Shown here one piece after another: positions 991 through 31,466 of a stretch of 44,132 bases of DNA. The notes below the pieces were generated by a model. That model was not told where the DNA came from and searched no databases. It was given only the letters and a program-made list of their open reading frames with translations. This DNA is from a virus, in IMG/VR virus record IMGVR_UViG_3300037587_000383, positions 1 through 44,132 of that record. One strand, given 5' to 3'. Position 1 is the stretch's first letter; every line of letters begins with the position of its first letter. The position numbers and the translations under genes are program-made.

Positions 991-1024
991 ACTATTGACT
1001 TCATGTTTTATCTCCTTTGTGTTA

Positions 1025-1114: not shown

Positions 1115-1133
1115 GACAATTAAGGATAAGGAA

Positions 1134-3901: not shown

Positions 3902-3912
3902 AGGAGGGTTAA

Positions 3913-4461: not shown

Positions 4462-4488
4462 TTAATAAAAAGAAAGGAGGGCAAGATT

Positions 4489-4743
4489 ATGTCAATGGAT
4501 GCAGGAGCCGAAGCTAAAATCCTAACACTTGCCAAGGATATGGCAGAGAGCCTTAGTGCTCTAGAAAGCGAATTAGGTAACATACTGAAGCGTGGCGAGA
4601 TAAAGGACAAAGTTCCATCAGAGTCAGGCATCGTAATCCCTAATATAGTTGCAGAAATTATTGGCACTCTGATACGGAACAACAAGAAACTCAGCGAACT
4701 AGTGTTCCAGATGAGAAGTGAAATCTTCAACAAACTCAGCTAA
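4489..4743 (+). CDS. Small helical hypothetical protein
   Basis: An 84-residue, mostly helical protein with a strong AAAGGAGG before the ATG. Heptad-like hydrophobic spacing in residues 10-35 and 55-80 suggests it oligomerises. It sits between the acidic-tail protein and the ERCC4-like gene. No family recognised. Confidence 0.55.
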   Translation: MSMDAGAEAKILTLAKDMAESLSALESELGNILKRGEIKDKVPSESGIVIPNIVAEIIGTLIRNNKKLSELVFQMRSEIFNKLS

Positions 4744-4748
4744 GTACA

Positions 4749-10924: not shown

Positions 10925-13900
10925 TCATGTGTCTGCATACTCCCATATTGACGACACACGAAGGTATAACTCCGTATCAGTATTGCCAGAGTAGAACTTC
11001 ATAGTTATCTTCTGGTTGATTATGGGTAGTGGTAGGAAACCCATTAGTTTTATATCAGCCAATGTTAGAAACAGATTCACTCTTTTTCCAGCATCATCAG
11101 CCGTAAAAGGGGCAAGCTGTAGAATACGAACAGGGCTATTACCACCAGAACGGTCAAACCCGACAATACCAAAGAGAGCATACGCATCTGTGGCGGCAAC
11201 CTTATCCGACAGGTCAACATCAAAGGCGTCTGCTGCTACATTCACTTGACTCTGAACATCTATGGAATCGTTATCTGCCCAATCGTCAGTTGAGGACTCA
11301 GTAACAAAGAAATCATTTACTATGTCAGCATCCTCAATCTTTCTTATGCCATGCCTTATGGAATAACCCTCATTCCCGTCAGGGAAAAGGTCAAGGTCAT
11401 TACCCAAGTCGTCCATTATAGCTAATCTTCCCGCAGCAGCATTGGCAATGGACTTTACAAATCCAATAGTTACATCTGTGGTATTCTTAACCTCATCACC
11501 TACCGCAGCAGCTCCCTCACCATCATCCACAGTAAAGTCATCGGCACTATCTACTAACTCGTTGGTTGTGTCTGTATCGCAAGTACCACTATACTTTTCA
11601 GTTACATTGTGAAGTATGATTTTGCCCCAGTGGGTACTTCCATTATAGGCAGTTATTCCAGTAAACATAGTTTTGTGAGAATCATTGTCGTATGGCACAT
11701 TAGTTGCGGTAAGTCCGCCAGTCCCAGCAGCGTGTATGAGACCTGAAAAGGCACTACGAGCTAGATTTCCTATGTAGAAAATATCTCCACCAAGTCCAGC
11801 TGTCTTTAATCTTAGAAGTCGCCCACTACCTGCACCAAAGTCTTGGCTAAGATGAGTCTTGTCAATAATGTTTGTTAGAAGTAAAGTTCTGACTTCAGCT
11901 AGGGTTTTCTTAACCCAGGCAAATGGACTGGCAGCAGCCACTATAAAATCATTCTCCGCAGTGCCAGCAGGAACATTACTAGCCAAGCCAAGTAGAGTCT
12001 TTACTTCTGCGAGTGTCTTCTTAATAAATGCACCAGAACCAGAAGCCACAAGGAAGTCATTAGCAGCAGTTGCTAAAGCGTGTAGAATATACTGGGTATG
12101 CACATTGCCAGTAGGCAGGTTTGCTAGCGAATTATGGTCTGTAGCAAGAGAACTCACAAATGCAGTAGTCCAAGGATATGTAATAATTAGAGTATTGGAG
12201 CCTTCCTGGTTAATAATCTTGGCTATAAGCACACAGTAGCCTACAACAATAGAAGGTAGGACAGATGGAACACCTGCCTCTTCAGCCTGATTTGCATTAT
12301 AGTTACCCTGTCCATAAACTATATGTAGATGCGCTCCATCAATATCTGCATAGACCCAGTGAACGCCAAACCTATTCGTGCCAAGAGAAACCTTACCAGA
12401 TGCAATATTATTGTAGCTTTGCACCAAGGCAGATATGCCTGTATCCTCGTTCCAGGTAGAACCGCTATCATCAGTCCACCAATAAGACCAAGTACTACCA
12501 TCGACAGTAGTTGTGTGTCTATTGGTTCCTGCATAAAGTACACCAGTAGTTATAGACAAAGCTAAGCTACCACCATCTGAGGTGACAAGTCCAGAAGACC
12601 TGTGAGCACCATGATGCTCCACCTCATGCATAAAAGTTCTATTTATGCCCTGTATGCCTAAGTTCGATGATGGGAAGATGTGAACAGTAGTTCCCTGTCT
12701 ATAAACTGCGCTAAGTAAAATATGGTCTTGTTGGAAGCCATAAGTACCATAATTGGTTGCTACAACTATTTGTGGAGTCCCACCATTATAATCCAAGTAG
12801 ATAGCATTAACGCTATTATCTGTGAGAGTTTGCTTTGCCTTCCCTGCATAGTCAACAAACTTACCTACAGCTGTATCGGAGTCTGACTCCTTACACCAAG
12901 CAGTGCAGGCAGCTATAGCCACGCTACCATCAGCGTCTCCATGTGCTGAAATAGTGCCACCTGATAATAGTGTCCTATCTCCGAAGAAGTTGATGTAGTC
13001 CTGAAGCCTATCATAAGTAGCACCAGCTAGTTCATATACCTCTACATCATTGGCTTTTCTTACACCTTCCTGCCAAACTTGAAATGCTGATGTAGAGCGA
13101 TAGACATGCTTAGCCTCATCGCCTAAGATAACGATACCATTGCCACAATCTGCCATGCAGAGAATATCGGCAGAAGCAACTACTCCAAGGTCTGTCCAGC
13201 TATAGCCATAGTCAGTAGACCTAAAGATATGCCTATCATCATCACCAAGTACCACAACACCATTGCCTAAATAGACCATAGCTCGAATTGAGTTACCTGA
13301 AATCTCGCCCAAATCTGTCCAAGTAAGTCCATAGTCAGTAGATCGCAGTACGTTAAGAAGACCGCCAAGTAAAGCAACGCCATTACCTAAGTAAGCTATG
13401 GAGTATAGGTAATAATCAAGAGCACCTAAGTCTGTCCAATTAGCGCCATAGTCAACTGACCTATAAAGGTGCTTTGAGCTGTCACTTAGCAAAGCAATAC
13501 CATTACCTAAGTATGCCATAGCATAAATTATGTCAGTGGAAATTATGCCTAAGTCAGTCCAGTTAAGACCAAAATCGGTAGACCTACGCACATGTTCATT
13601 AGCATCGCCACAGATAACTATGCCATTACCTAGATAAGCTGTTGTATAGACAGGATACCCATCTCCAGCAGGTCCTACGTCAGTCCAGTTGAGTCCGTAA
13701 TCAGCAGAGCGATGTAGTTGACCATCACCATCGCCAAAGACGACTATGCCGTTACCCAGATTAGCTATGCGATAATTATATTCACTAGTACTAATGCTTA
13801 ACTTTGTCCAGGTGAGACCAAAATCTATAGAACGCCAAATGAAGTCCCAATCACCAAGAAGAGCAATACCATTACCCAGGTAAGTTATAGAATGAATATA

Positions 13901-14197
13901 GTCATCAGTAATCTCGCCAAGGTCAGCCCAGTTAAGACCATGGTCTTGTGAATAGATACTAGCATCCTCAACCAGAGCAAACTCCAAGGCATCCTCAGCT
14001 ACATTAACCTTAGTAACCTTCCCAGCTTCCCCTGAGTAACTGTCTGGAGTATCCTTCAACCTTATAAAGTTAATAAGATTCTGCACATAAGCAGGTATAG
14101 CTGTTACATATAGACGTCTCTTCTCATAATCCAGCATAACAGGATTGACGTACATAGGCTGGTCTTCTGGTCTCCGTCCTGAATACTTCTTACCCAT
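10925..14197 (-). CDS. Asp-box beta-propeller receptor-binding or tail fibre protein
   Basis: The frame is open from 14236, but the ATG at 14197 (MGKKYSGRR) follows AGGAAAG and abuts the upstream stop, giving 1090 residues. From residue about 83 to 370 there are eight repeats of 39-42 residues, each with S-x-D-x-G-x-x-W, the Asp-box of sialidase-like propellers; the eighth is degenerate. Near the C-terminus two copies of NDFxVAxxx..F..KKTLAEVxTLL follow, then beta-rich domains. Asp-box propellers in phages mostly occur in surface-binding tail proteins. No catalytic sialidase residues can be assigned, so binding rather than cutting glycans is the safer reading. Confidence 0.78.
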   Translation of the reverse strand: MGKKYSGRRPEDQPMYVNPVMLDYEKRRLYVTAIPAYVQNLINFIRLKDTPDSYSGEAGKVTKVNVAEDALEFALVEDASIYSQDHGLNWADLGEITDDYIHSITYLGNGIALLGDWDFIWRSIDFGLTWTKLSISTSEYNYRIANLGNGIVVFGDGDGQLHRSADYGLNWTDVGPAGDGYPVYTTAYLGNGIVICGDANEHVRRSTDFGLNWTDLGIISTDIIYAMAYLGNGIALLSDSSKHLYRSVDYGANWTDLGALDYYLYSIAYLGNGVALLGGLLNVLRSTDYGLTWTDLGEISGNSIRAMVYLGNGVVVLGDDDRHIFRSTDYGYSWTDLGVVASADILCMADCGNGIVILGDEAKHVYRSTSAFQVWQEGVRKANDVEVYELAGATYDRLQDYINFFGDRTLLSGGTISAHGDADGSVAIAACTAWCKESDSDTAVGKFVDYAGKAKQTLTDNSVNAIYLDYNGGTPQIVVATNYGTYGFQQDHILLSAVYRQGTTVHIFPSSNLGIQGINRTFMHEVEHHGAHRSSGLVTSDGGSLALSITTGVLYAGTNRHTTTVDGSTWSYWWTDDSGSTWNEDTGISALVQSYNNIASGKVSLGTNRFGVHWVYADIDGAHLHIVYGQGNYNANQAEEAGVPSVLPSIVVGYCVLIAKIINQEGSNTLIITYPWTTAFVSSLATDHNSLANLPTGNVHTQYILHALATAANDFLVASGSGAFIKKTLAEVKTLLGLASNVPAGTAENDFIVAAASPFAWVKKTLAEVRTLLLTNIIDKTHLSQDFGAGSGRLLRLKTAGLGGDIFYIGNLARSAFSGLIHAAGTGGLTATNVPYDNDSHKTMFTGITAYNGSTHWGKIILHNVTEKYSGTCDTDTTNELVDSADDFTVDDGEGAAAVGDEVKNTTDVTIGFVKSIANAAAGRLAIMDDLGNDLDLFPDGNEGYSIRHGIRKIEDADIVNDFFVTESSTDDWADNDSIDVQSQVNVAADAFDVDLSDKVAATDAYALFGIVGFDRSGGNSPVRILQLAPFTADDAGKRVNLFLTLADIKLMGFLPLPIINQKITMKFYSGNTDTELYLRVSSIWEYADT
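13073..13960 (-). repeat. Eight tandem coding repeats of about 123 nt
   Basis: The propeller repeats also show at DNA level: the Asp-box codons recur every 117-126 bp, with related blocks for YLGNGI and RSTDYG. Such repeats can recombine and change blade number or sequence. Confidence 0.7.
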
Positions 14198-14198
14198 T

Positions 14199-16178
14199 TT
14201 ACTTTCCTGTAATTCCTCGACTCTGCAATTCTGCAACTATCACATTTAGTCGGCTCTTATCTGCCTGAGTCCATCTCACTGGACCTAACTTCATCAGTTT
14301 ATCAAACTCATCCAAGAGTGCTTTATTTGAGACAGATGGTAAGGCAGAAGGCTTAGGAGTTATATCTACAGCTTTTAGTGTTGGAGGTGGAAGTTCAGGT
14401 GCTGTAGTCCTAGTAGCCCAAGAAGGCCAATCTTCCATAGATGTCCATATTCCAAGCTTCTCCTGCAAGTCAAGCCATTCCTGAAGCTTCTCTGGAGAAA
14501 GTGGAGCAAGCGGGGCTCCTGGCACTATCGGCTTTACTGGCTCATCAGATGGCGTTACTGGCTCTGCAACTTCATCAGGCACCCGCTTTATCGCTGCCTC
14601 GGATACATCTACATTAAAGCCCAAGTCGCCAACAGCAATTTCCATTCGGTATAGTCCAGGATGATAGACCTTACGAATAGAGGATACTCTAGCTACTAAA
14701 TCAGACGGATAAGCAAAGTAAGCAGCCATAGTGTCTCCATATGCAAATCCAGTATCGTTGATGGCAAAGGCTCTTACTCTATACAGCTTGCCAGCTTCAA
14801 GCGGTAGTTCAAGGCTATATTCTTCTGCTGCAAACTCACCATCAGTAGACAGACTTCCATCAACCTCATAGCTATCGTCAAAGACATTAGGGTCTCCTTC
14901 AGTTGCTTCCTTATAGCAGAAGCCTCTCACACTGCACGTGCTTCCATCTCCAATAGCAGATATAGTTCCGTATGCTAACGTACTAACCATTTTGTCAGTA
15001 GTTATAGTTGGATAAGTGTGAGATACTTCAACCAACAGTCCAAAGGACGCCTTCGCAGTAGCAGGACTATCTCCCTCTTCCCATTCCAAACAAAACAGTT
15101 CACCCTTTGACAGAGCTACAGACTCACCTGTAATGTCGCCCTCAGTATCAGTATCCTCTATCGTCACTGTAACAGATGTTGGTGTTGCTCCTCCACCTAT
15201 CTCCTTCTTTACAAGAGTACATGTCCGACTCTTACCATTGCCAGGTGCAGTATCTAACTTAACAAAGAGAGCCGTTATAGTCATACCAGCATTAGCCATC
15301 GCCTGATAGCTTCCATCAGAAGTACTTGCACCTTCTCCTATAGGATAAGAGTACCCAGGAGTGTTTACTCGGAATTCATCACCGCCTCCAATTAAGTGGG
15401 AGTTGGCTATACCATGAAGCTTCATACTGAACCCAATTCTTGTATCAGCAGGACTGCCTGAGGGCTCGGCACGAATACTTATGCCATCCCCTGGTGAAGT
15501 TGCCACTGAGTTAGCCAAGTCACTCCCAGTCTTAGCAGTGTTAGATATTGTTACTGCAAGACTAGTGTTTACCTCATTCTTCCTCAATGTGAAGGTCCAT
15601 GACTTCCCACTTCCTGGAGCAACTTCTAGCTCTACCCTAAGGTCACTTATAGTCTTACCCTCAGCAGCAACAACTGAGCGCTCAATCTCATCATCTCCCT
15701 GATAATTATAGCCTAGGCTTAGGTAACGACCAGAATTATCCTTGTCAGTTGACCCTGACCAATGACTATCACTTGCGCTAGCAGCGCCTTCTGAATCGGT
15801 AGTGAAGAAAACCAGTGAAATATGCTGATTATACTGAGAAGGGTCATTAACTGGTCGAACCCTAATATAGAGGTTATCGCCTGGACTTATAAGTACCATA
15901 GAACGGAGGGTAACCTCAGTATCAGTATCTGATATTACACCAGATAGTGGAGTTGATGAACCATTCCTTATAACAGTATATATGTACGTTTTGCCTACAC
16001 CTGGTGCTGTTTCAAGCTTGACGTGCATCTGAACTAGGATACCGTAGATGGAGCACGGAACTCTCACCTCATAGTAGGCAGTTGGTCCTTTAGCTGCTTC
16101 GTTTCTACCAAATATGCATTGATACCGAGTATCGTCATAGTCGGAGACTACCCCTGTAAGAAGGAATATCTGACTCAT
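14199..16178 (-). CDS. Multi-domain virion protein with triple repeat and FN3-like domain
   Basis: A 659-residue protein. Three repeats spaced about 125 residues carry the pattern L-x-x-APGxGKxxxxTxxxN, near residues 55, 182 and 308, each followed by a beta-sandwich-like stretch ending in SPGD or SKGE. Residues about 390-490 resemble a fibronectin-III fold (LPLEAGKLYRVRAFAINDTG). The tail is Pro-rich, then helical. It stands directly before the propeller gene (stop and start 1 nt apart), so a tail or fibre-base role is likely. No enzyme motif seen. Confidence 0.65.
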   Translation of the reverse strand: MSQIFLLTGVVSDYDDTRYQCIFGRNEAAKGPTAYYEVRVPCSIYGILVQMHVKLETAPGVGKTYIYTVIRNGSSTPLSGVISDTDTEVTLRSMVLISPGDNLYIRVRPVNDPSQYNQHISLVFFTTDSEGAASASDSHWSGSTDKDNSGRYLSLGYNYQGDDEIERSVVAAEGKTISDLRVELEVAPGSGKSWTFTLRKNEVNTSLAVTISNTAKTGSDLANSVATSPGDGISIRAEPSGSPADTRIGFSMKLHGIANSHLIGGGDEFRVNTPGYSYPIGEGASTSDGSYQAMANAGMTITALFVKLDTAPGNGKSRTCTLVKKEIGGGATPTSVTVTIEDTDTEGDITGESVALSKGELFCLEWEEGDSPATAKASFGLLVEVSHTYPTITTDKMVSTLAYGTISAIGDGSTCSVRGFCYKEATEGDPNVFDDSYEVDGSLSTDGEFAAEEYSLELPLEAGKLYRVRAFAINDTGFAYGDTMAAYFAYPSDLVARVSSIRKVYHPGLYRMEIAVGDLGFNVDVSEAAIKRVPDEVAEPVTPSDEPVKPIVPGAPLAPLSPEKLQEWLDLQEKLGIWTSMEDWPSWATRTTAPELPPPTLKAVDITPKPSALPSVSNKALLDEFDKLMKLGPVRWTQADKSRLNVIVAELQSRGITGK

Positions 16179-17233
16179 TATGTAATACCTCTACTATCAA
16201 TTACTGCTATCTTGTCATACAGCTCCACTATACCATTGTGAGGAGCAACCATACGACCTGCCATCTGCTCAAACTTAGCTCTACCCAATAGAGCAGCTGC
16301 CCTAGCAGTCACATCTGCCTGTTGAGTCAGTGAGCCTGACAGAACAATTCTAATAATATCATAGTAGGCAGCTACCTCATCAGCATCTTCAGCTTCACCA
16401 GTTAGATAACTTGTCCACAGACCGTCAGCACCTTCATTGCCATAGACATAGATGTGATTAGGCACAAGCACATTCTTACGCTCCATATACTCAAAGAAGT
16501 ATGGTGCTAGACCTGAGTAAAATGTTATATCAACAGAATCACTATCCTGTGGATACTTAATCTCAAACTCCAAATCATCCAGAGGTTTCAGATAGCTGGC
16601 AGTCATATTCAGGAGCCTGTAGATTAAGGCATCAGCATATTCAAAGGGCTGAGCATTGATGTCAAACTGAGGTTGGAGTGAGTCAATAATGCTATCATCC
16701 TCTTCCAGCACATTGAGAGTCAAGGCTGGGTCTATCTCACCAAGGATGATAGCTATGAGGTCATAGATAGTATCAGTGGTATAGCTGCCAGTATATAAGG
16801 GAGGACTGCCTACTCGGATAAGTGTCTCCCTGAGCAGAGTCCACATACCCTCTAACTCTAGCAGCTCCCACAGCTTGCCACCAGCAGAGATAGTTTGTTG
16901 ATGCTTTACCCAGAGGCGAGGAGGCGCTGGCTCATTAGTACCATCGCCAAGATACTCATCGCCTGCACCAGTTGTGTAGCCCCAACCTATCTCTACCCAG
17001 TAGCCCAGGATGTTTGGGATATCCCTATCTTTGTTCCTAAGGATAATAGTGGCATAGTCATTGTAGACTTCCTCAACTCCATCTATCAGTATTATGCGGT
17101 TTCCGTAGGCACTGCTGTCAGTTGATAAGTCTACATCAGAATCGCCAGTATGCTTGAACAGTAATTTGAAATAAGGAGTCTTAGTAGCCGCATTCTGGGC
17201 TGCTAGGTACGTTCCTGATACCGACCTAGCCAT
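16178..17233 (-). CDS. Tail or baseplate hub-like structural protein
   Basis: A 351-residue beta-rich protein with AAGGAGA before the ATG. The first 180 residues (DGVEEVYNDYATIILRN..., WVEIGWGY, LWELLELEGMW) look like the beta-barrel part of hub-type tail proteins, and the last third contains AARAAALLGRAKFEQMAGRMVAPH followed by LYDKIAVID, which in hub-like proteins precedes the final barrel. Its end overlaps the next start. The hub label is inferred from this pattern and position. Confidence 0.55.
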   Translation of the reverse strand: MARSVSGTYLAAQNAATKTPYFKLLFKHTGDSDVDLSTDSSAYGNRIILIDGVEEVYNDYATIILRNKDRDIPNILGYWVEIGWGYTTGAGDEYLGDGTNEPAPPRLWVKHQQTISAGGKLWELLELEGMWTLLRETLIRVGSPPLYTGSYTTDTIYDLIAIILGEIDPALTLNVLEEDDSIIDSLQPQFDINAQPFEYADALIYRLLNMTASYLKPLDDLEFEIKYPQDSDSVDITFYSGLAPYFFEYMERKNVLVPNHIYVYGNEGADGLWTSYLTGEAEDADEVAAYYDIIRIVLSGSLTQQADVTARAAALLGRAKFEQMAGRMVAPHNGIVELYDKIAVIDSRGIT

Positions 17234-18952: not shown

Positions 18953-20038
18953 TTATACAGTTATTGCCTCATCCTTCACATCAAACATCCTTGCTAGACA
19001 GAGAGATGAGCCAAGTAGCAATGCTCCGTAGTTGACCAGCCTTATGCCCCCAGCATCATAGGTCTCAAGCTCAGGGAATCGGACTAGCTTGTAGAAGTCT
19101 CCCAAGCCTTCAGTTCCACCATAGGCATAGGTTAGTCCAGGCTCCTGGTTCAGCACGTTACCATGCTTGATGATGAAGAGAGAGTACATGCCAGTTGAGC
19201 TGTAGAGAGCCCTCGCATCAGAGGATGAGCCAGTACCAGTGTTTGCCTCTTCCTTCACTAGGTAGTCAGTCCGTATGATAGGAACGCCATCCCAGAAGAG
19301 TACTCGCTTGCCAAGTTCGTTTAAGCCAAGAGTGATGAAGCCAAGATTGCCAGCTGTGCCATGAGCCAGACCAACAAAACCTTTCTCCTGATAGGCAGCA
19401 TCCATTCTTCGGATGATTTCAAAGGGAGCCCAGATTTCATCTGCCCCATGCTTCATCTCGTCTACCTGAAGTCTAAGCAGTGCTAAGGACAGACCAACCT
19501 CGTTGGCGTCTATGTTCTTAGGGTCGTTAGTGCCAGTCCAGTCGGTAGCCAGGGGCGCTCCATGCTCAGCAGCCAGAGCGTGTATGCCATCAAACTGCTT
19601 GGCAGAGCTATAGGTATTGTCAGCATAGATGATTCTGGCTCCTATCTTCCTCTTCATCGCCTTCTCGCACTCCAGGAGCAACCGAGCCTCATAGTTGTTG
19701 TAGGTACCGTAGATGCCAGGCAGATAATGGTCAAGCTTCCTCTGAACATAGCTTGTACGAAGAGTCATTTCTTTCTCTTCATAGTCTACATCCTCAGTCC
19801 AGGACAGTAGTTCACCAATATCTATCTCGGCTATAGCAGCCTCAAGAGCAGCAACATTAGCAGGCACTTCTCTTAGCCACTCTATCTTTTTCCCTGTATG
19901 AGCTGCCTGCCCTACGGTAAGTCGCTCTAAAGGGTTATTGCGCTTAATGTCTTCTTCAAAGACACCAGGTATCTTCATAGACTGCGTCAGCTTTTGAGCC
20001 GCAGCCAAAGTTACCCAATGTCCACCTGAATCAGCCAT
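18953..20038 (-). CDS. Major capsid protein (HK97-fold type)
   Basis: A 361-residue protein directly after a scaffold-like gene, with AAAAAGGAGACACT before its ATG. Features fit HK97-fold capsid proteins: a flexible N-terminal arm, a helix-rich first half with a long spine-like helix (NEVGLSLALLRLQVDEMKHGAD), the segment GKRVLFWDGVPIIRTDYLV typical of the P-domain to A-domain part of capsid proteins, and a beta-rich end. No protease-cut prohead domain is evident, so the separate scaffold protein probably guides assembly. The call rests on order (portal, internal protein, scaffold, capsid) and these patterns. Confidence 0.85.
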   Translation of the reverse strand: MADSGGHWVTLAAAQKLTQSMKIPGVFEEDIKRNNPLERLTVGQAAHTGKKIEWLREVPANVAALEAAIAEIDIGELLSWTEDVDYEEKEMTLRTSYVQRKLDHYLPGIYGTYNNYEARLLLECEKAMKRKIGARIIYADNTYSSAKQFDGIHALAAEHGAPLATDWTGTNDPKNIDANEVGLSLALLRLQVDEMKHGADEIWAPFEIIRRMDAAYQEKGFVGLAHGTAGNLGFITLGLNELGKRVLFWDGVPIIRTDYLVKEEANTGTGSSSDARALYSSTGMYSLFIIKHGNVLNQEPGLTYAYGGTEGLGDFYKLVRFPELETYDAGGIRLVNYGALLLGSSLCLARMFDVKDEAITV

Positions 20039-20058: not shown

Positions 20059-20736
20059 TTATTTTTGTTCAGAGGTAACAGGTTCTCGGACTCCACGCTG
20101 AGGAGTATTAGCAATAACTTCAGCAGCTCTCTCTATGTTTGTCTTTGGAGCTGCTCCGCCAGTGCCTCCTCCTATTGCGTAGTTCCCAACACTGCCTCCT
20201 CTGCTAGCCGCCAATGCTTTAGCGGCTTCTTCTAAAGAATCAAGCTGTGTCATTGTCTTTTCTGCTAAGCTGTCAGCGGTAAAACCTTGCAATACCAGTA
20301 ATGCCCGCTTGAGCTCCAGAGCCTTGCCAGCATCTGCGGTCAAGGTCTCTACCTTTGTTAAGGCATCGGTTAGTTCCATCTTGATTCTCGCAACTTCCTC
20401 ATCAGAAGTCGCACCCAGCCCTTGGGCTTTTTCTAGGGCTTCCTTGCTTTTAGCGTTCAGGTCGGCAACATTCTGAAGGGCTGCCGATAGCTCTAATGAT
20501 TTGGCATCAATCGCCTCAACATGAGCTGCCTGAGCCTTCTCAGCTGCTGACTCTGAACTCTGCTTCAAAGCCATGAGGTCGGACTCCTTCACCATCTTCT
20601 TACCATCTACGAAGATAGCGCCTTCCTTCAACTCCAACTTGGGAGCAGTTTCTCCACCAGGAGGAGTTGCAGGAAGAGGAGCGCCCTCACCGCCAGGAGC
20701 AGCACCAGGTGTTTCCGTCTGGTTCTCAGTTACCAT
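20059..20736 (-). CDS. Capsid scaffolding protein
   Basis: A 225-residue protein immediately before the capsid gene. Residues 1-35 are Pro/Gly-rich, 50-180 form an uninterrupted charged Ala-rich helix (coiled coil), and the tail is Gly-rich then basic. This design is standard for phage scaffold proteins, which fill the prohead and leave it before DNA enters. It has its own promoter (20759-20787), unlike the genes around it, which would allow extra transcription of scaffold and capsid. Confidence 0.8.
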   Translation of the reverse strand: MVTENQTETPGAAPGGEGAPLPATPPGGETAPKLELKEGAIFVDGKKMVKESDLMALKQSSESAAEKAQAAHVEAIDAKSLELSAALQNVADLNAKSKEALEKAQGLGATSDEEVARIKMELTDALTKVETLTADAGKALELKRALLVLQGFTADSLAEKTMTQLDSLEEAAKALAASRGGSVGNYAIGGGTGGAAPKTNIERAAEVIANTPQRGVREPVTSEQK

Positions 20737-20787: not shown

Positions 20788-20814
20788 GGATAATGACATC
20801 AGCCATTATTTTAT
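20781..20814 (-). repeat. Shared late-promoter element, copy 1
   Basis: TTGTCAAGGATAATGA (20781-20796) and ATTATTTTAT (20805-20814), separated by 8 bp, are identical to blocks at 32427-32442 and 32452-32461, separated there by 9 bp. The first block includes the -35 box. It extends into the end of the 2090-residue gene. Confidence 0.8.
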
Positions 20815-23800
20815 TTCGCTTCCCCTACCATTTCTGGTACAAGGTATTGCTTAACCAGTTCATCATATATCTCTCTGGATTCGATAGACATGAACTTGTC
20901 AGTATTACCGAAGAAGTAGAGCCAGGCATCTAGTGTAGGGTCAAGGATGCGGAGACGCTGCCGAGCTTCCCTGAGTTGCTTCTGATAGCCTGAGATGAGC
21001 TTGCCATCAGGTCCCATGACTTCTAGGATTTCCTCCCGCTCAGTCCCTCTAGCTACCTCATATCTGCGAATTATCATCACCTGCTCATCAGTATATTCTC
21101 GTAGGACTATGTCTCTGATGTTGCGGTAAGGTCTGGCATAGGTTCTGCTAAACTCCCAGTATAACCGCTCCATAGGAGTCCAGTCATTTTGGATTCTCTG
21201 CATCAAGCGTTCCCTGAATGGTGGAGTTAAGGTTTCCAGTAGAATATCAATGTAGGCATAGTAGGTCTCAAAGTCCAGCTCCATTCGGTCTGACTCCCAG
21301 TTGTATTTGAGTTCAGGCTTCAGCTCAAAGTAGTAATACATTAGCTCCTGGTCAGGAGTTTGGGTAGGAGTAACTATGCCACGCTCCTCCAGTAGAGTGG
21401 ACCTCTCCTCAAAGGTTTTAGGAACATCTACATAGGCAGGAGACTCACCAAGGATACGAACTGCCTCGCCAAGTCCATCCTGTATATCGTTGCGATGGCT
21501 CTTCCACTGGCTAGGACCTATCGTTCCGTCCACGAGTTGCTGGTTAAGGTCTATTATGCTCATCTGGATAAGTTTACCATCTTCATACCTGCCATTGTAC
21601 CTGGCATCATTATAGACTTCCTCCAGCTCCTTGTAGTAGTCTCTAATCTTAATGTCCAGTGCCTGCCAGCTGGAAGGATATAGAGGAGTTGTAATCCCCT
21701 GATAACGCCTGAAGGATTCCCACTGATAGAGGAGTGCCTGCTGCTGTATATCCAAGTGGTAGTAGTCGCTGAACCGCTTGCCTGTTACAGGATACATCTT
21801 ATCTATCCACTCCTGAGTTTTCACAGGAACACCAGTTGCTTCCTCTATGGCTAACTTCATCTCCCTGCGGAGTTGAGTAAACTCATCAGGACGGATTCTG
21901 AACAGTCCTGTCTGGTTCATAAGGATTCCTTTGATGCCGTCTACCTTATTGACTGCTTGTAGCCAGAGCTTCTCTTCCTCTTCAGTCAGTTTGATGTTCT
22001 GCTGCTTCTTGTTCCATATCTCGTCAGCGTCATAGCCCATACCACCAAGAGTTAGCATAGCCATGTAATCTCGAAAGCGGTCAGGATAGACAAGTTCGAG
22101 TATGTTGCCTATATGCTCAGGGGATAAGGCTCGTAGGGCGCTGAGTCCTGTCTTAATCCAAGCAGGCGCTAGTTGCCCAAACTGAGGAGGTTCTCCAATC
22201 TTAGTACCGAAGAGGATGATAGGAAGCATAACATGGACACCTGGGAAGAAGCCAGCCCTACCGATGTAGTCAAGGAATTCTATGCCAGGTGCAGCATCGT
22301 GGTATTCAGGGAAGTCTCGGAGGTAGAAGCTCCTGAGTCCGCCCATCCAGACAGTACCTCTGAGGATATTTATCTGTAGGTCAGTGGCAGGCACAGGCAT
22401 ATAGCCTTGGTCAGTGTTAGTCATGTATCTTGCCAGCGCTGACATAGTGCCAGGAGTCCGCATGAAGGTACGAGGAATCCACTTCCAGCGGAAGAGCTCG
22501 TAGTTCCAGAAGGGAAAGATGGCTCGCATGGTCTCGTCTATGATGTTAGCATCCTCGTAAGTTGGGTAGGATAAGGAGTGCATTTCTCGGGCTTTGGTCA
22601 TGGCTGATTCCTTCTTAGCCCACCAGTCAGGAGTACCACCAAGACCTTCAGCAGTTGGAGGAACTTTCGGAGGAGCAGCCGCTGTAACCTCACCTATTGG
22701 CTTAGCCTTCTTCCATATTCCTGAAGGAGCTCCTAGTATATCAAGCTCTGTCTTACCTGCTACAGTTACCTTACCAAGCGACCAAACCTCTTCAGGCAAA
22801 TCATCAAATACAAAGTAAACCTCAACTTCAACACCACTAATCCGCTTACGAATGTTATCATCTATAAGCTGAGCACCAGCCAGGTCCTTGCTATTAGAAA
22901 GTCTCACAACAATATCCAAGTCGCTCTTGGCAGTTGCTCTTCCAGTAGCATAACTACCAGATACGAACATATTCCTCCTATCAGCAAATTCTCTCAATGA
23001 CTCATACACACTACTGACCTTAGTAGGAGCAACCCCAGGAGCTACCTTATATGCTCCCAACTGTTCTGTTTCATCTGCTACACTGTTGATATACTTCCTC
23101 CACTTGATAACATCGGACTCAGGAATTCTGGTAGAGCCATACAGCCTATGCAACTCCTGCCTAACCTCCTCCAGCTGTAGCACAGTAGGATGGTCAGGAG
23201 TGAGGATGCTAGGGTCAATGCCAAGGTTCTTCCACATCTGGTCATAGACCTCACCTATTGCCTCATCGGTGAAGCCTAGTTGGTCAGCAGTCTTGCCAAG
23301 CTTAGCAGCATAGGCAGTAGCCTGGTCTCTGGTATGAACAATGAAGTCCTCACGAGGACGGACTGTAGTATGATGCTGGATTCTGGTGAGTCCTCGATAA
23401 AGGTCATCTCCAGTACAGCCATACAGATAGGCTAGATGATTAGGAGTTAGCTCACCTACGACATCTGGCACAAAGTCAGGGACAAATACAGGCTTGTCTA
23501 CTGACAGCAGGAAGTTTCTCTTCGCTGCTAACTCCATACTAGTAAGCCTTCTATCTAGAGTATCATGCCCATCCCATACAACAGACTTAGAAGACTTCTG
23601 CTGAGCCCAGAATCTATCGTTCCTCAGGCGTCTAGGAGTGCGAGGGATTACTGCCTCAATGTCAGCTATCTTAGTACGAGTAGCTAGCATATTCTCAAGC
23701 TTAAGACGAGTGATGTTATCAAGGTCGGTAAGGCGAGCTAGCTGAGTTTCGTCCAATCCAACTGCTCTAGCATTCTCCATTACCTGATTCATCATCCTTG

Positions 23801-26800
23801 TCAACTGCTCTTCCGATGTCTCCATAAACTCCGACAGCATCTTGGCAGACCCTACCTCAAAATTATCAAAGTCACCAGGGTCTAACCTGGCTTTTCGTAA
23901 CTCAGTAATTCGTCTGAAGTCATGTATTCGCTCACCTACAGCTTCTGCCTGAGAAGTTATACTCTGCATATCCCCAAGGAAGTCGTCAAGGTTACGAGGA
24001 GGATTAGCTATGAAGGCTTTGGTTTCTGCCTCCAGAGCATCTATCTGAGGAGCCAAGCCTGCTATGTTTAACTCCCGCTCAGATGCTATAAAGGCAGTTA
24101 CTCTGTCATCTATGCCATCAGCACCCTTAGCAAACATAGTACCATCCAGCACTTCATTCTCAATACCCTTCTTGGTAACAGTGTGAATGTCATTCATCTT
24201 ATCGAAGGTCTTGTTAATTTCCTTGCTAATCTGTCTCCGCTGCATAGTAATAACATCTATATCAGCAAAGTTCCTGACACTATCAGGTCCTCCGCCTATG
24301 GCTTCCAGTTTCAGTTCTCGCCTTATATCGAAGGCATCCCTCTTAGTGATACTGGGTATGTCGTCTAGTAGATGCTTAGTCTTCACTTCCAGTATATCAG
24401 ATATAGCTCTCATGTCGTCAGGAGCAATATCCTCAAGAGTTTTCAGAAAGTGAACTTGGAAATCGTATGATGTCTGGTCTACAGTGAGCTTACCCCACAT
24501 ATCGTACCAGTCTTGAGCACTGCCCATAAAGAACCTCTGGTCGCCTATGGTTATAGTCTCGCCAAGCATCTTACCACCCCACCTAGGAATCTTCTCAGGC
24601 ATACGGACATTCTTAGTTATGAATGGTATCTTGCCACCTTTGAACACAGCAGTAGTACCAGTTTTAGGGTCAATCACAGCCTGAGTAGTTCGCACCATAC
24701 CTTGCTCAAACGACCTGAGTTCATAAGGAGCATTAGCTAGTCCTCTGAATAGTCTATTGGTTTCAGCAACCCCACTGTATGCCTTGGGATGCATAATTTC
24801 TGCTCCACCAAGAAAGCTTCTTCCCATATTCTCAGCAAAGTTGAAAGGACCAAAGTTGGTGAACAGTAGCTGCCATCTAGCTATAGGCATTACTACTCTC
24901 CGCTCAAGAGCCACAAGAGCAGATGAGTACAATATCCTATCTGCTACTCTGCTATGCCACGATGCTGACCTACCAGCCTGCTGCATCCACTTGGTAAGAG
25001 GGCTATGAAGGTTAGCATATCTAGTAGTCTCCGCTCTGTTGAATATAGACCGAAGCAAATCGTCAGCAGTATCGCCCTTGAGAGCATCAATAGCGTTCTT
25101 AGCCACAGATTCCTTAAACTTGCCTATCTTAGTAGCTAAGGTAGCGACTGATTGCTCAGTGGCTTCTACTCCCATATCGCCCAGCATTCTGCCTGCTGTT
25201 ATTCTATTGCCTTGACCACTGAAAGCATCCAGCAGATTGCTATTGAATCTGGCTAGCCTAGGAACATCAAAGGTTACAGTGCCAGCAGCTTCCGCCACAA
25301 ACTTAGCCGCCAGTGCATCGTCTAGGTAGTTAAACTCCAGCATATTAGCACCAGCCCTGACTGCTAAGTTATTGCCCTCCATAGGATTAGCTAGTGCAGT
25401 TCGAATTGCTGCCTCGGCAGTCTCGGTAACATCTTTAGCTGTCAGTCCCCTAAGATTCCTTACCTTAGGGAATGTTCTATCCAGTACTGCCTTGAAGTCC
25501 ATCAGGCTCTTGCGACCAAAGTTACGAGCCATCTGAGTGAATGTTGCAGGTATAGTGTAGCCAGCACCTGTAAGCCAGAAGGCGCTCTTGATAGGAGCAG
25601 CCACTACTTGCAAAGCACCCTTAAATACTGCATCAGCAGCAGATACATAACCCTGCTCAAACGCTACCATCAGATTGCCGATTCTACTTCCTGCCCATTT
25701 AAGCCCCCTGGGCATAGCAGCAGTTGCAAGCTTCTTACCAGCAGCAGCAACTCCTCCCCAGCCTAGGTACATTAGAGGGTCAAAGGCTGAGTCAAGTATC
25801 ATCTTCTTCCACCAAGGAGCATCCCACTCATTGAAGGCTTTAGCGTATGAAGACCAGGCAGTTTCGCCCTGAGCTTGGTAGAAGTCATAGTGTACTGTTA
25901 GCTCCTTATCAGTCTCCGTCTCAAAGATAGAGAATAGAGTAGCACCACTAACAGCCCCTACTACCAAACCTATGAGTGCTCCTGCTCCCATACCTATAGG
26001 TCCACCAAAGGCACCGATTGCTGCTCCTGCCATACCACCTGCACCAGCGCCAAGAGCAACACCATGCACTGCACCAGCAATAGGAGCAGGTAAGTTCATC
26101 ATAATAGCAGCAGATAGAGGACGACTGATAGAATCCCACCACTTCTGCATTAGTTCCACAGTAGCCATCATGGGCTGAGTAGCTATTAGTTTCGCCCAAT
26201 CACCAGGAGTCAGTTCAGGCGTCTCAGCGAGGATTGTTCCTGCCCTGATAAGATTCATTCTGGCAGCTTCAAGTTCCCATTCCCTAGCCCTTTCAGCCAA
26301 CCATTCCCGCTCACTCTTCATCTCCTCATCGGTCAGCTCCAGTTTGCTGAGTAGATCTCTAACATCCTCTGCACTCATACCTGGTGGTAACTCAGTAACG
26401 CCAAAAGTAAATGCCTTGGCTATCTCATCTATTGTCAGCCTGTGTACTCCCTTAAGCTCTACCTTTGGCTCAGCCAGTATCTCATTGATTACCTTGGATT
26501 GAGCTTCTAGCACATCGCCTTGGAAGTCCTCAGGAAGCACATTAGATAGGTGTGATAACTTTTCGTAAGTTTGATTTAGCCACACAACGTCAGCATCTGT
26601 TAACTCTGCACCAGAGCGAACATATTGTAGTATATCTGCTGCCTTCTCCATTACATAGAATGGGTCAGACAGATATACTGGCATGACTTGCATAATCTCC
26701 AACTTCCATTCAGACATCTGGAAGTCCCGAACAGCAGCATCAAACTCAGCGGCAGCCTCTGCCTTAAGAGCAAGCTCCCGCTCAGGAGACATCTTCTCCC

Positions 26801-27083
26801 CAAAAATCGCCTCAATCATACCAAAAGGAAATAGAGGAATACTCTTACCAAACTGTCCAACAGTAGTGAGCCAACTTGGAAGTCCAGTATGGTATGGTAC
26901 AGGCTTGACTAAGTCTTGCTCAGCAGTCTGCATCCGTACATAGGCTTGTTGGAGTTCAACTCCTATCTGCTCAAACTCCGTACCGAAGCCAGTATAGTAT
27001 TCAGGGATTTCTGGAGGAGGAGGCAGTTCAGGAACAGGTTCCTCTCCAGTTACAGGTAATAATTCCGTAGGTTGTTCTGCCAT
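20811..27083 (-). CDS. Giant internal virion (ejection) protein with nucleotidyltransferase-like domain
   Basis: A 2090-residue protein between portal and scaffold genes. It is mostly helical. A Gly/Ala-rich hydrophobic stretch (about residues 330-390) could insert in a membrane, as in proteins ejected with DNA. Around residues 1374-1395 the pattern GSYATGRATAKSDLDIVV matches the minimal nucleotidyltransferase motif GSx(n)SDxD, followed by EVEVYFVFDD which may supply the third acid. About residue 1228 a YRG-containing segment (DLYRGLTRIQHHT) faintly recalls ADP-ribosyltransferases, too weak to call. Location and size suggest a podovirus-like internal protein delivered into the host; an injected enzyme is inference. 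Confidence 0.72.
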   Translation of the reverse strand: MAEQPTELLPVTGEEPVPELPPPPEIPEYYTGFGTEFEQIGVELQQAYVRMQTAEQDLVKPVPYHTGLPSWLTTVGQFGKSIPLFPFGMIEAIFGEKMSPERELALKAEAAAEFDAAVRDFQMSEWKLEIMQVMPVYLSDPFYVMEKAADILQYVRSGAELTDADVVWLNQTYEKLSHLSNVLPEDFQGDVLEAQSKVINEILAEPKVELKGVHRLTIDEIAKAFTFGVTELPPGMSAEDVRDLLSKLELTDEEMKSEREWLAERAREWELEAARMNLIRAGTILAETPELTPGDWAKLIATQPMMATVELMQKWWDSISRPLSAAIMMNLPAPIAGAVHGVALGAGAGGMAGAAIGAFGGPIGMGAGALIGLVVGAVSGATLFSIFETETDKELTVHYDFYQAQGETAWSSYAKAFNEWDAPWWKKMILDSAFDPLMYLGWGGVAAAGKKLATAAMPRGLKWAGSRIGNLMVAFEQGYVSAADAVFKGALQVVAAPIKSAFWLTGAGYTIPATFTQMARNFGRKSLMDFKAVLDRTFPKVRNLRGLTAKDVTETAEAAIRTALANPMEGNNLAVRAGANMLEFNYLDDALAAKFVAEAAGTVTFDVPRLARFNSNLLDAFSGQGNRITAGRMLGDMGVEATEQSVATLATKIGKFKESVAKNAIDALKGDTADDLLRSIFNRAETTRYANLHSPLTKWMQQAGRSASWHSRVADRILYSSALVALERRVVMPIARWQLLFTNFGPFNFAENMGRSFLGGAEIMHPKAYSGVAETNRLFRGLANAPYELRSFEQGMVRTTQAVIDPKTGTTAVFKGGKIPFITKNVRMPEKIPRWGGKMLGETITIGDQRFFMGSAQDWYDMWGKLTVDQTSYDFQVHFLKTLEDIAPDDMRAISDILEVKTKHLLDDIPSITKRDAFDIRRELKLEAIGGGPDSVRNFADIDVITMQRRQISKEINKTFDKMNDIHTVTKKGIENEVLDGTMFAKGADGIDDRVTAFIASERELNIAGLAPQIDALEAETKAFIANPPRNLDDFLGDMQSITSQAEAVGERIHDFRRITELRKARLDPGDFDNFEVGSAKMLSEFMETSEEQLTRMMNQVMENARAVGLDETQLARLTDLDNITRLKLENMLATRTKIADIEAVIPRTPRRLRNDRFWAQQKSSKSVVWDGHDTLDRRLTSMELAAKRNFLLSVDKPVFVPDFVPDVVGELTPNHLAYLYGCTGDDLYRGLTRIQHHTTVRPREDFIVHTRDQATAYAAKLGKTADQLGFTDEAIGEVYDQMWKNLGIDPSILTPDHPTVLQLEEVRQELHRLYGSTRIPESDVIKWRKYINSVADETEQLGAYKVAPGVAPTKVSSVYESLREFADRRNMFVSGSYATGRATAKSDLDIVVRLSNSKDLAGAQLIDDNIRKRISGVEVEVYFVFDDLPEEVWSLGKVTVAGKTELDILGAPSGIWKKAKPIGEVTAAAPPKVPPTAEGLGGTPDWWAKKESAMTKAREMHSLSYPTYEDANIIDETMRAIFPFWNYELFRWKWIPRTFMRTPGTMSALARYMTNTDQGYMPVPATDLQINILRGTVWMGGLRSFYLRDFPEYHDAAPGIEFLDYIGRAGFFPGVHVMLPIILFGTKIGEPPQFGQLAPAWIKTGLSALRALSPEHIGNILELVYPDRFRDYMAMLTLGGMGYDADEIWNKKQQNIKLTEEEEKLWLQAVNKVDGIKGILMNQTGLFRIRPDEFTQLRREMKLAIEEATGVPVKTQEWIDKMYPVTGKRFSDYYHLDIQQQALLYQWESFRRYQGITTPLYPSSWQALDIKIRDYYKELEEVYNDARYNGRYEDGKLIQMSIIDLNQQLVDGTIGPSQWKSHRNDIQDGLGEAVRILGESPAYVDVPKTFEERSTLLEERGIVTPTQTPDQELMYYYFELKPELKYNWESDRMELDFETYYAYIDILLETLTPPFRERLMQRIQNDWTPMERLYWEFSRTYARPYRNIRDIVLREYTDEQVMIIRRYEVARGTEREEILEVMGPDGKLISGYQKQLREARQRLRILDPTLDAWLYFFGNTDKFMSIESREIYDELVKQYLVPEMVGEAK

Positions 27084-27084
27084 A

Positions 27085-28848
27085 TTATGCTCCTAGTTCA
27101 GGCATTACTGCTCCTCTGCCTGCAGTCAACTGTCCCACTGCTCCAGGTCCAGCAGCAGGCTTAGGAGAAGGCTCTCCCTCAGATTGTGGCATTAGCTGTT
27201 GCAAAGCCATATCTGCCATCAGGTCGTATAGTTTGGCACTCTCTATGTCATTGTTATCAGTAAGGAAAGCTGCCTGTTGTCTGTAGTATTGGGTTAAGGC
27301 TATCACTGCATTACTAGGATGAAGTATAGCCTTATCCGCCAAGACCTGAGCCCTTTCTCTCATTGGGTCTGAGATATCAGGAAATAGCTTGCTTTGCACA
27401 TAAGTATAGCTCAGCTCAAAGGTCGGATGCAACATTCTTGCAGTAGTAGCCCGCTGGATGAGGTCGCCAGGGATTTCTACTTCATAGTCAGCAGAGACCG
27501 TAGTGTCCTCAGGCAAGTCCTTAGGATATGTCCAGCCATAAGGCTTGATGCCTCGTTCCCTTATATCAATAAGGTCGTCATTGTCCATATCTGACAAGGC
27601 ATCTACTATCGCCTGATGAAAAGGCTTCATCACCTGATTAGCTGAGGCAGCAATCTGGCTCATAACATAGGCTGTTATCTGTCCAGTAACCGCTCCGTGC
27701 ATAGCCCAGCTAACTCCACCTCTCTGCATCATGGCTTCAAGGTCAAGCTGAGTGCTCCTGAGCTCTAGTGGTATAGGTGGCACAGATAAATAATCCACAG
27801 AGTCGTCAGGACCTCCACGGAAGATTGCTCCTCGCCTGAAGACATCCTGAGGCTGTACGATAGCCTTGCCACTTCTGCTCCGCTCAAAGATTCTGGGTTG
27901 AGCAGTGTCCCTTAGTAGCTGTAGGCTAAAGGACCACCACTTATTCCAGGTACGATATACATTCTCATTGGTAGCTATGATAGACTGACCAAGCTCAGCC
28001 TTCCAGCGCTCAGTGGTTACCTCCTGAGTGTTCAGCTTTAGGGTAGATGAGTAGGTCGGAATGACTCCTTCAGTCAAACTACCCATATCAGGAAGTCCAC
28101 CAACTGGAGCTATGTAGATAGGAATTCTCTTAAATCTGGTCTGCTCATACTTCACCAGATCCTGACCTATCACAATAGCGTTCCAGACGGCAGCAATGTA
28201 AGGAAATGTATCTGTTATCTCAATCCACCAGTAGTCATAAACTTCCACACTCCTACCTGCAGCAGTTGTCCACTGACTAAAGGGGCTACTGAGCATCCAA
28301 TTATTCTTCTTGACCAAGTTGATAGCCTGCAGCGGACTGAGTGGATAGATGCGAGCTACCTCCGACAAACCTAACATCGCATCCCACATCGGGAAAACTT
28401 CCATAGGATTCAAAGGCTCTTTGTATGTTCTCTTGCCATCATCAGAGTTGAGGCTAATCATAGAGTACCAGCCAGTAGCAAGCAGGAAGCCTATGAAAGT
28501 TCTCATCAGACCCTGCCGAGGATTAGAGCGACGGAAGGTGTTCTTAGCATCCTTCCAGCTAAGTTTGAAGTATCGGCTAACCTCAGCTACCGCAGTTGAT
28601 ATAGCAAGGTCAGCCATATCATACTCCTTGACTCTATGAGGTATGTCAGCATCAAGGAGATGTAGCACAAGATTATACATAGACCTTGGGTCATTGCCTA
28701 CAAAGGATTCCATCTTGTCAGTCCTGAGCTCATCAATCATCTCAATCAGCCTGTACCACCGCTTCATAGCATCATTTCTAGGCTTCCAGAATGTCCTGAG
28801 GTCCTTACATCGAGTTGTTACTTTTACAGCAGTTTCAGTATTACTCAT
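27085..28848 (-). CDS. Portal protein
   Basis: The frame is open from 28881, but the ATG at 28848 (MSNTETAVKV) follows GAAGGAGAAATT, giving 587 residues. The size, the helical core, the segment RRGAIFRGGPDDSVDYLSVPPIPLE and the C-terminal barrel-like helices with a Pro/Gly tail fit phage portal proteins, the dodecameric ring through which TerL pumps DNA. It follows TerL after a group of small genes and precedes the giant internal protein, the usual order. No detailed subfamily assigned. Confidence 0.8.
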   Translation of the reverse strand: MSNTETAVKVTTRCKDLRTFWKPRNDAMKRWYRLIEMIDELRTDKMESFVGNDPRSMYNLVLHLLDADIPHRVKEYDMADLAISTAVAEVSRYFKLSWKDAKNTFRRSNPRQGLMRTFIGFLLATGWYSMISLNSDDGKRTYKEPLNPMEVFPMWDAMLGLSEVARIYPLSPLQAINLVKKNNWMLSSPFSQWTTAAGRSVEVYDYWWIEITDTFPYIAAVWNAIVIGQDLVKYEQTRFKRIPIYIAPVGGLPDMGSLTEGVIPTYSSTLKLNTQEVTTERWKAELGQSIIATNENVYRTWNKWWSFSLQLLRDTAQPRIFERSRSGKAIVQPQDVFRRGAIFRGGPDDSVDYLSVPPIPLELRSTQLDLEAMMQRGGVSWAMHGAVTGQITAYVMSQIAASANQVMKPFHQAIVDALSDMDNDDLIDIRERGIKPYGWTYPKDLPEDTTVSADYEVEIPGDLIQRATTARMLHPTFELSYTYVQSKLFPDISDPMRERAQVLADKAILHPSNAVIALTQYYRQQAAFLTDNNDIESAKLYDLMADMALQQLMPQSEGEPSPKPAAGPGAVGQLTAGRGAVMPELGA

Positions 28849-28858
28849 AATTTCTCCT

Positions 28859-29110
28859 TCATAGTACCACTCCAAGCACATATGCTACTGCTCCAGCTAT
28901 AGTAAATATAAATCCAGCAAATCCAAGTACTGTTCCAACCATATAGTAGTGATGCTCCTTTATTACCTGACCCCTCAGTACTGCAGATATCGGAAACGCA
29001 GGAGTCCAAGGACAGTAGCCATAGCCAAAGCCTATAACAAGAGCGTGCCACTCCTCGTGAGTACTCAGACATTCTCCCAGATTCTTAAATATCCTACCTA
29101 GAAAAGCCAT
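28859..29110 (-). CDS. Small membrane protein
   Basis: Start chosen at 29110 (MAFLGRIFKN) after AGGGAG; 83 residues. The last 30 residues (YYMVGTVLGFAGFIFTIAGAVAYVLGVVL) form one clear transmembrane helix reaching the C-terminus; an amphipathic N-terminus and a His/Trp-rich middle precede it. It could be a holin, a spanin-like protein or a virion membrane component; lysis is suggested by its location near other membrane genes. Confidence 0.55.
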   Translation of the reverse strand: MAFLGRIFKNLGECLSTHEEWHALVIGFGYGYCPWTPAFPISAVLRGQVIKEHHYYMVGTVLGFAGFIFTIAGAVAYVLGVVL

Positions 29111-29792: not shown

Positions 29793-31466
29793 TTATCTTC
29801 CCCAGTCATCTGACCATCCGCTAGTGCCTACAAAGCCTCGCTGGATTGACTGGGCATCTCTACATACTATCGCAATAGCACCGCAGTCGTGGTGGTCGTC
29901 GGCACCTACAACTATGATGCCGCTCTTGACCATAGGATTTCTGCGGATATTCTTGCACTGACTCCAGAAGCGAATGTCCTGGCAGTCCAAATGCTCCATA
30001 TGTCTATTGAGTTCAGTAATCATATAGGGCTTAGTGGATATGTTGGTCTGCCAACCTATCGCCCTGATTAGCTTTCCTGTTCTTACATCCTCTCGCCAGT
30101 AGAGGTCAGGATAATCTCGTAGATGGCTAACTATATCAAGATTGTCTTCTGGTGCTATAACCCCATCATTGTAATAGTGAGCAACAACCTTCATATACTC
30201 AGCCATCTCCCACTCATCATAGAAGCCTGCTAGCGTAGCACAATGCTTCATGATAGGCGATACTTCCTTACCATCCTTATTCTGATAGCCAACTTCAAAG
30301 TGCCACACATGACCTACCGATTCAGATATCTTGCCCTTGCCTGGGTCTATAGATATTACATAATTTAGTCCTTCTTCCTTATCATGCCAGATTTCCAGTT
30401 CGGCTGAAGTGCCATTCTTGAGATTTACAATGTTCTTTGGGATAGGTGCAGGGATACACTGGCGAATCTTATCAGTGATGATGTCAGTGCTATATGCTTG
30501 GTCTCCAGCAACAAGGAAGCAGGTCTCATCATCCTCAGGGAATTCCTGCTCAAACAATAGCATGGTATCTCCGCTTCTACGAAGACTAGCCATCTCAGCT
30601 CTCTTATATCTCCTCCATCGAAGTTTAGCCATAGCCTCATACCCTTCATAGCCATACTCCGAGAGCAACAACTTCATCAACAACACCTCATCTGACTTCA
30701 AGTTTGGTAGTGGGTCAGTGTCATCTCCATCAAGACAGAATGGGTCATCTGGATACATGACATACTCAGGATGGATAAACCAAGGATAGAAGTGAGGCTT
30801 GTATACTGATTGAGCAACCACTGTTCCTTCCTTAGCTGCTCGGTACATCTCACAGTGAGGATTATCTTCGCCATTAGCAGTGGACAGTACTCTAATCTTA
30901 GTCCCCAACTTCAATGGCACACGCTGAACTGCCGAAGCAAATACGCCCTCGTGAGTACCTATCTGCCAGAAGCCGTACTCATCCATTAGCAGATTATGTA
31001 TAGGCTCTCCCCTACCAAGTGTGTAACTTCTAGAGGTAAAGATATACATGACGGAGTAGAAGTCAGTATCCTTATCTTCCCAGGTTAACTCCTCAGCTCC
31101 CTTATGCTCCATCTTAGGAATTGATGGAATCTTCCTGACTAGGAACTGATGGAAGCGCTTAGCCTTGATGATTAGACGCTTGGCACTGGTCTCATCGTAG
31201 CTGATGATAACTGATACAGTTCCACTGGTAGTAATGTTATCAAGGTAGAAGTCCGCCAGATGGAATGATGTAGCCCCTATGGTAGCAGGCTTTACATAGA
31301 CATCCCGAGGACCTGAGTTCTCCAGCATATCCAGCTGAATAGGGTTGAGGATAAAGTCCACAAGCCTACGCTCCTTATCCTCTATCTGGAGAAGGCTCTC
31401 CATCATAAGTCTGCGGTCAGAGAATAAAGCCTTTAGAGCTTCATCTTGGGTTACAGCAGTCGCCAT
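29793..31466 (-). CDS. terL: Terminase large subunit
   Basis: A 557-residue packaging motor. The ATPase part shows an ATP-binding loop variant ATIGATS (61-67), Walker B LLMDE ending at Glu163, and the coupling motif STANG (about 195-199). The nuclease part starts with Asp374 in ISIDPGKGK and ends with the acidic DDHHD cluster near residue 525. Between them, LFEQEFPEDDETCFLVAG is typical for large terminases. It cuts concatemers and pumps DNA through the portal. The P-loop lacks the usual GKT Lys, as in other terminases with a displaced Lys (here Lys59). The ATG shares one base with the upstream stop. Confidence 0.92.
   Translation of the reverse strand: MATAVTQDEALKALFSDRRLMMESLLQIEDKERRLVDFILNPIQLDMLENSGPRDVYVKPATIGATSFHLADFYLDNITTSGTVSVIISYDETSAKRLIIKAKRFHQFLVRKIPSIPKMEHKGAEELTWEDKDTDFYSVMYIFTSRSYTLGRGEPIHNLLMDEYGFWQIGTHEGVFASAVQRVPLKLGTKIRVLSTANGEDNPHCEMYRAAKEGTVVAQSVYKPHFYPWFIHPEYVMYPDDPFCLDGDDTDPLPNLKSDEVLLMKLLLSEYGYEGYEAMAKLRWRRYKRAEMASLRRSGDTMLLFEQEFPEDDETCFLVAGDQAYSTDIITDKIRQCIPAPIPKNIVNLKNGTSAELEIWHDKEEGLNYVISIDPGKGKISESVGHVWHFEVGYQNKDGKEVSPIMKHCATLAGFYDEWEMAEYMKVVAHYYNDGVIAPEDNLDIVSHLRDYPDLYWREDVRTGKLIRAIGWQTNISTKPYMITELNRHMEHLDCQDIRFWSQCKNIRRNPMVKSGIIVVGADDHHDCGAIAIVCRDAQSIQRGFVGTSGWSDDWGR

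Follow-up and report, generated by a model that had tools for sequence, protein, structure and literature searches.

A predicted MNT-type nucleotidyltransferase in an exchangeable socket of a giant phage protein

The IMG/VR virus record IMGVR_UViG_3300037587_000383, analysed here over its positions 1 to 44,132 (the window, 44,132 nucleotides in all), encodes a giant protein that carries a putative nucleotidyltransferase (NTase) domain at an internal site, which we call the main socket. The open reading frame reported for the giant by a first-pass annotation is borne out and begins with ATG; it lies on the minus strand, which that annotation had not stated. Upstream is a gene in the portal position and further upstream the gene for the large terminase subunit (TerL), and downstream come a scaffold-like gene and then that for the major capsid protein (MCP) (Table 1). 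This order is kept in the relatives whose flanks are long enough, and the conserved TerL and MCP neighbours confirm that the giant is located among virion and packaging genes. The earlier placement of the giant between portal and scaffold holds as far as TerL (99.9% in profile comparison) and MCP (PHROG 212) are concerned, while the portal is named from gene order, the product of 27085–28881 having no match in the profile comparisons.

Table 1. Features of the giant protein gene and its neighbours in the window
Feature	Position	Strand	Evidence or remark
Giant protein gene, 2090 aa: conserved scaffold and variable module	20811..27083	minus	Open reading frame; homologues
Minimal Pol-beta NTase domain (predicted), residues 1344–1453	22725..23054	minus	Pfam PF01909; model; Foldseek
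GSX10DXD catalytic signature, residues 1376–1390	22914..22958	minus	Sequence motif
Acidic strand VEVEVYFV, residues 1418–1425, probable third metal ligand E1419 or E1421	22809..22832	minus	Sequence and model
Exchangeable socket, residues 1345–1482 with linkers	22638..23051	minus	Alignments; lowest GC3 of the gene
Site after residue 648; 151-aa insert in L003, empty in window	25139..25140	minus	Alignments
Site after residue 1025; ~125-aa GNAT-like module in six relatives, empty in window	24008..24009	minus	Alignments
Site near residue 1108, empty in window	23759..23760	minus	Alignments and insert comparison
Site after residue 1320; inserts in L024, L026 and L029, empty in window	23123..23124	minus	Alignments
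Glycine-rich hydrophobic segment, residues 329–389	25917..26099	minus	Largely missing from many relatives
Portal-position gene, 598 aa	27085..28881	minus	Identity by gene order only
TerL	29793..31466	minus	tblastn; hhalign 99.9%
Scaffold-like protein	20059..20736	minus	Position and composition
MCP	18953..20038	minus	PHROG 212, E=1.4e-7; tblastn

The NTase was recognised from its motif, its profile and its predicted fold. The motif, GSYATGRATAKSDLDIV, has the exact GSX10DXD form (G1376, S1377, D1388, L, D1390). The GSx(10)SDLD that the first-pass annotation had placed near residue 1374 is therefore present, with its G at residue 1376 (GSYATGRATAKSDLDIVV), and so is the acidic strand said to follow it, which begins at V1418 (VEVEVYF); the giant contains hG[GS]x9-13Dh[DE]h (G1376–S1377, D1388, D1390) with an acidic residue on a later strand (E1419 or E1421). 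The bare motif by itself would have been weak evidence, because a loose GSx8-13Dh[DE]h pattern arises in 2.8% of shuffles of the protein; the strict pattern appeared in 0 of 5000. The profile search proposed earlier as a check returned NTP_transf_2 (Pfam) for both the whole protein (E=6.2e-6, 27 bits) and the domain region (2.5e-7, 31.4 bits), in each case above the curated cut-off of 21 bits. Structure prediction, for which the first-pass annotation had named the lack of a Pol-beta fold as refuting, gave that fold: an AlphaFold model built on a 20-row alignment, whose rows were taken from viral contigs via a motif scan, shows helices and strands alternating in Pol-beta order (pLDDT 67.6, 70–85 in the core; pTM 0.59). 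The top PDB matches of the model in Foldseek were MNT antitoxin structures, 8xeh (E=2.1e-4, probability 1.00), 8xeo, 1no5 and 7bxo, the best being a HEPN–MNT complex and MNT antitoxins at probability 1.00, with aminoglycoside nucleotidyltransferases next; the best NCBIfam match was the MntA antitoxin. Since the alignment included MNT-like rows, the assignment to MNT rather than to another NTase type is less secure than the fold. Close relatives of the NTase by itself were not found. Taken together, motif, profile and model show residues 1344–1453 to be, by prediction, a catalytically intact-looking minimal Pol-beta NTase of MNT type.

The remainder of the giant has a different distribution. 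Its scaffold of ~1800 residues is encoded by ~50 uncultivated viral contigs (16 relatives in a first scan, 44 loci in a wider one), with none among 50,697 phage records or in the species genomes scanned, and it is common to the relatives, from which the NTase is absent with few exceptions. In the alignment of relatives, residues 1349–1479 of the window protein are swapped for other modules or absent. The socket holds an ART-PolyVal-like ADP-ribosyltransferase (ART) module in L002–L004, L006 and L007 (L003 scores 31.3 bits with Pfam ART-PolyVal, cut-off 31.2), a peptidase-like module with HEFMH (HExxH) in L005, a GNAT in L018 (Acetyltransf_1, 24.5 versus a cut-off of 20.7), and a divergent NTase-like module in L010, a weak match with an hhalign probability of 24.7%. 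It is empty in L008, L012, L013, L016, L021, L031, L035, L036, L037, L042 and L043, while the remaining relatives have other or unassigned sequence there; L025 is truncated by its contig end and is not countable as empty. Parsimony on a 33-row scaffold tree requires the socket content to have changed at least 16 times, a count in which several labels were given by eye from motifs. The GC content at third codon positions (GC3) of the window socket is 0.297, compared with 0.443 for the whole gene, and falls in the bottom 0.1% of equal-length segments, which is consistent with recent acquisition. We rejected the idea that the NTase is an ancient integral part of the giant, as near relatives have an empty socket. 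An assembly artefact is also an unlikely source of the variation: contigs from different metagenomes repeatedly show related modules and empty sites, in frame. On these alignments the NTase is best described as an exchangeable insert outside the core of the protein, a point that the first-pass annotation had missed, and the comparison shows a conserved scaffold whose fixed sockets take interchangeable modules.

The NTase recurs in a distant homologue that was retrieved by the motif scan alone, L071, whose 1740-residue open frame ends at the contig edge. L071 and the window share 34% identity in TerL, 33% in the portal-position protein and ~24% in the giant, and the L071 giant is 26–33% identical to other family members over long stretches. 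Its NTase (30.1 bits) lies in the same socket and is the best match to that of the window among those retrieved; the two have in common the GS, the pair of DxD aspartates and an acidic residue at the third position. L167, with 94.4% identity to L071 across 1599 aligned residues, is without the NTase and has a short linker in the socket, with a larger insert at another site, and in L166 (77% identical) the socket is likewise empty. The same scan found, in two further metagenomic phages, Phage_Mu_F (66 bits) fused directly to NTP_transf_2 (42.7 bits), at L072:3461-4540 and L123:2647-3726. A small phage protein family (L055, L062, L121) has NTase-like GSYAFGCAE..SD[IL]D motifs that are hardly recognised by Pfam (14.7 bits for L062, cut-off 21).

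Besides the main socket there are four more insertion points (after residues 648, 1025 and 1320, and near 1108). The GNAT label at the 1025 site was given by eye and has no Pfam match; the 1108 site holds ART-like, NTase-like, HELGH peptidase-like, GNAT-like or helical modules in relatives. An unsupervised comparison of inserts found module families that are shared between sites: one helical module is present twice in L024 (E=4e-28), and the HExxH module lies near 1108 in L036 and L037 and in the main socket in L005. Scaffold pairs up to 91% identical differ in their inserts (L029 and L021). One effector-type domain is recognised in the window giant and several in relatives, many of the latter assigned from motifs only; L010, for example, has an ART-like and an NTase-like module, and L026 three inserts. 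Separately, intein-like insertions of ~300 residues occur at two sites of the giant that are fixed and highly conserved, corresponding to window residues 1526 and 1556 (L005:14513-15478 and 15545-16492; also L014, L021, L033, L039 and L040), with Cys at the start, TGN at the end and a weak, below-cut-off match to Pfam Intein_splicing. In two contigs the giant is split into two overlapping frames (L043:1-744 and 449-5356; L044:9917-13171 and 13162-13617), by frameshift, sequencing error or a natural split.

These features suggest to us, on balance, that the giant is a polyvalent-type protein ejected along with the phage DNA, and that the NTase is its exchangeable effector module and probably transfers a nucleoside monophosphate (NMP) to a host protein. 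The carrier would be packaged near the portal and would leave the capsid with the DNA, a delivery we infer from the conserved gene order and from the ART, GNAT and peptidase-like modules (PMC5512222). After ejection the MNT-type module in the main socket of the window phage would most likely transfer NMP, probably AMP from ATP, in a reaction that may be likened to those of MntA, GlnE and SidM/DrrA, and a host defence could thereby be disabled or the host redirected at entry. In MntA, GSX10DXD is the AMP-transferring motif, acting on a HEPN tyrosine (PMC7641770, PMC11586414). An attractive target would be a HEPN RNase of the host, from an abortive-infection or toxin–antitoxin system; the module would then act as an 'injected antitoxin'. 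This target is a guess, because the MntA cut-off was missed and there is no credible HEPN partner in the window. The boldest form of the proposal, in which uncultivated podovirus-like phages share a universal ejected carrier with fixed sockets and the window enzyme AMPylates a host HEPN RNase so that toxin-based immunity is disarmed before phage protein synthesis, seems to us distinctly unlikely.

Several observations weigh against an ejected, protein-modifying enzyme. The portal identity and the ejection role are drawn from gene position. The model is of only moderate confidence, its MNT-like alignment rows could have biased the fold toward MNT, and a 3-row alignment gave no usable AlphaFold model. 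The match to MntA reaches 23.7 bits where the equivalog cut-off is 60, the third acidic residue is E in the window and D in L071, and the sole RX4HXY match in the window lies in an unlikely antisense frame.

Among the possible chemistries we favour protein NMPylation: MNT antitoxins are both the closest structural matches and the best named family, and the remaining modules recognised in the socket are of types that modify or cut proteins. The minimal Pol-beta fold is used by protein- and RNA-modifying enzymes alike, and the module might instead be an injected toxin-like enzyme of MenT or AbiEii type, adding nucleotides to tRNA or other RNA and stopping host translation. Poly(A) polymerases and a CCA-adding enzyme do appear lower in the Foldseek list, and there is a weak Pfam match to MTPAP-like_central (17.1 bits, cut-off 27). 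Against this, the closest neighbours by structure and by profile are MNT antitoxins, which AMPylate proteins; an RNA-binding extension was not recognised; and the ART, GNAT and HExxH modules found in the sockets are mostly protein-acting. We consider an RNA substrate unlikely. A role in repair or protection, in which the module would restore tRNA or other RNA ends or counter nucleotide-based defence signals at entry, is less probable still. It has precedent in phage Pol-beta NTases such as RlaP and CCA enzymes, which serve RNA repair (PMC7824862), but neither family was matched by the window NTase in the Pfam and NCBIfam searches, and CBASS cyclase profiles are matched only weakly (16 bits) and only in the region of the shared catalytic motif.

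We give an equally small chance to a passive structural or decoration domain, for which the NTase fold would have been recruited in a protein that stays in the capsid. Such a domain would be compatible with the sockets that are empty or have no recognised enzyme, which imply that no particular module is needed for assembly, but it would not account well for the recurrence of several enzyme families or for the catalytic GS, DxD aspartates and acidic third position kept in the window and L071.

An ejected carrier with an exchangeable NTase can be compared with several known systems. Polyvalent proteins are large virion- or conjugation-associated proteins that mix ART, GNAT, peptidase and NTase domains and are predicted to be injected (Iyer et al. 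2017, PMC5512222). The window giant resembles them as a very large multidomain protein among virion genes, in a family with ART, GNAT, HExxH and NTase-type modules. It differs in that no LPD domain was recognised by Pfam profile search, and in being encoded by a phage and built on a long conserved scaffold whose sockets are fixed; the 2017 survey assigned Pol-beta NTases to conjugative elements only, not to phages (PMC5512222). The first-pass annotation knew of no described phage ejection protein with this domain; that claim should be narrowed, as injected proteins with Pol-beta NTases had already been predicted in 2017, although for conjugative elements and not for phages. With the MuF polymorphic toxins (Jamet et al. 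2017, PMC5576092) the giant shares a gene directly downstream of the portal position and a constant, head-associated part with exchangeable enzymes. In those toxins a small MuF protein carries the variable domain C-terminally, while the giant has internal inserts at several sites of its scaffold, and Phage_Mu_F has no match in it by Pfam profile search, which sets it outside the MuF proteins. The MntA/MNT antitoxins (PMC7641770, PMC11586414) have the same GSX10DXD and ~100-residue minimal Pol-beta fold and are the best Foldseek and NCBIfam neighbours, but the window NTase scores below the MntA cut-off and lies inside a giant phage protein with no adjoining HEPN gene. T4 Alt and the N4 virion RNA polymerase are packaged enzymes delivered with DNA (PMC5512222); the window enzyme is of another type, and its delivery is predicted where that of the other two has been shown. 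In the open-access literature we found no description of a phage carrier that has several internal sockets and bears an MNT-type NTase, and we regard it as a new form of polyvalent-type protein.

The 2017 survey excluded Pol-beta NTases from the phage-type polyvalent proteins; the arrangement would extend them to this group. It also amounts to a natural experiment, in which a single carrier scaffold comes with dozens of exchanged modules and scaffold pairs more than 90% identical have different inserts, so that the role of ejected phage enzymes in the first minutes of infection, and the defences they meet, becomes directly testable. The way the sockets vary among related phages suggests that such a phage exchanges the weapon it injects much as a drill takes different bits.

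Two minor features of the window remain. Matches of the giant to ejection or tail families were weak (tape-measure and unknown profiles), lay mostly over the glycine-rich segment and were judged compositional; the segment at residues 329–389 could be a membrane-inserting element that is gained and lost as a unit. Elsewhere, positions 10925–14236 encode a tail-fibre-like protein whose N-terminal part has BNR/Asp-box repeats.
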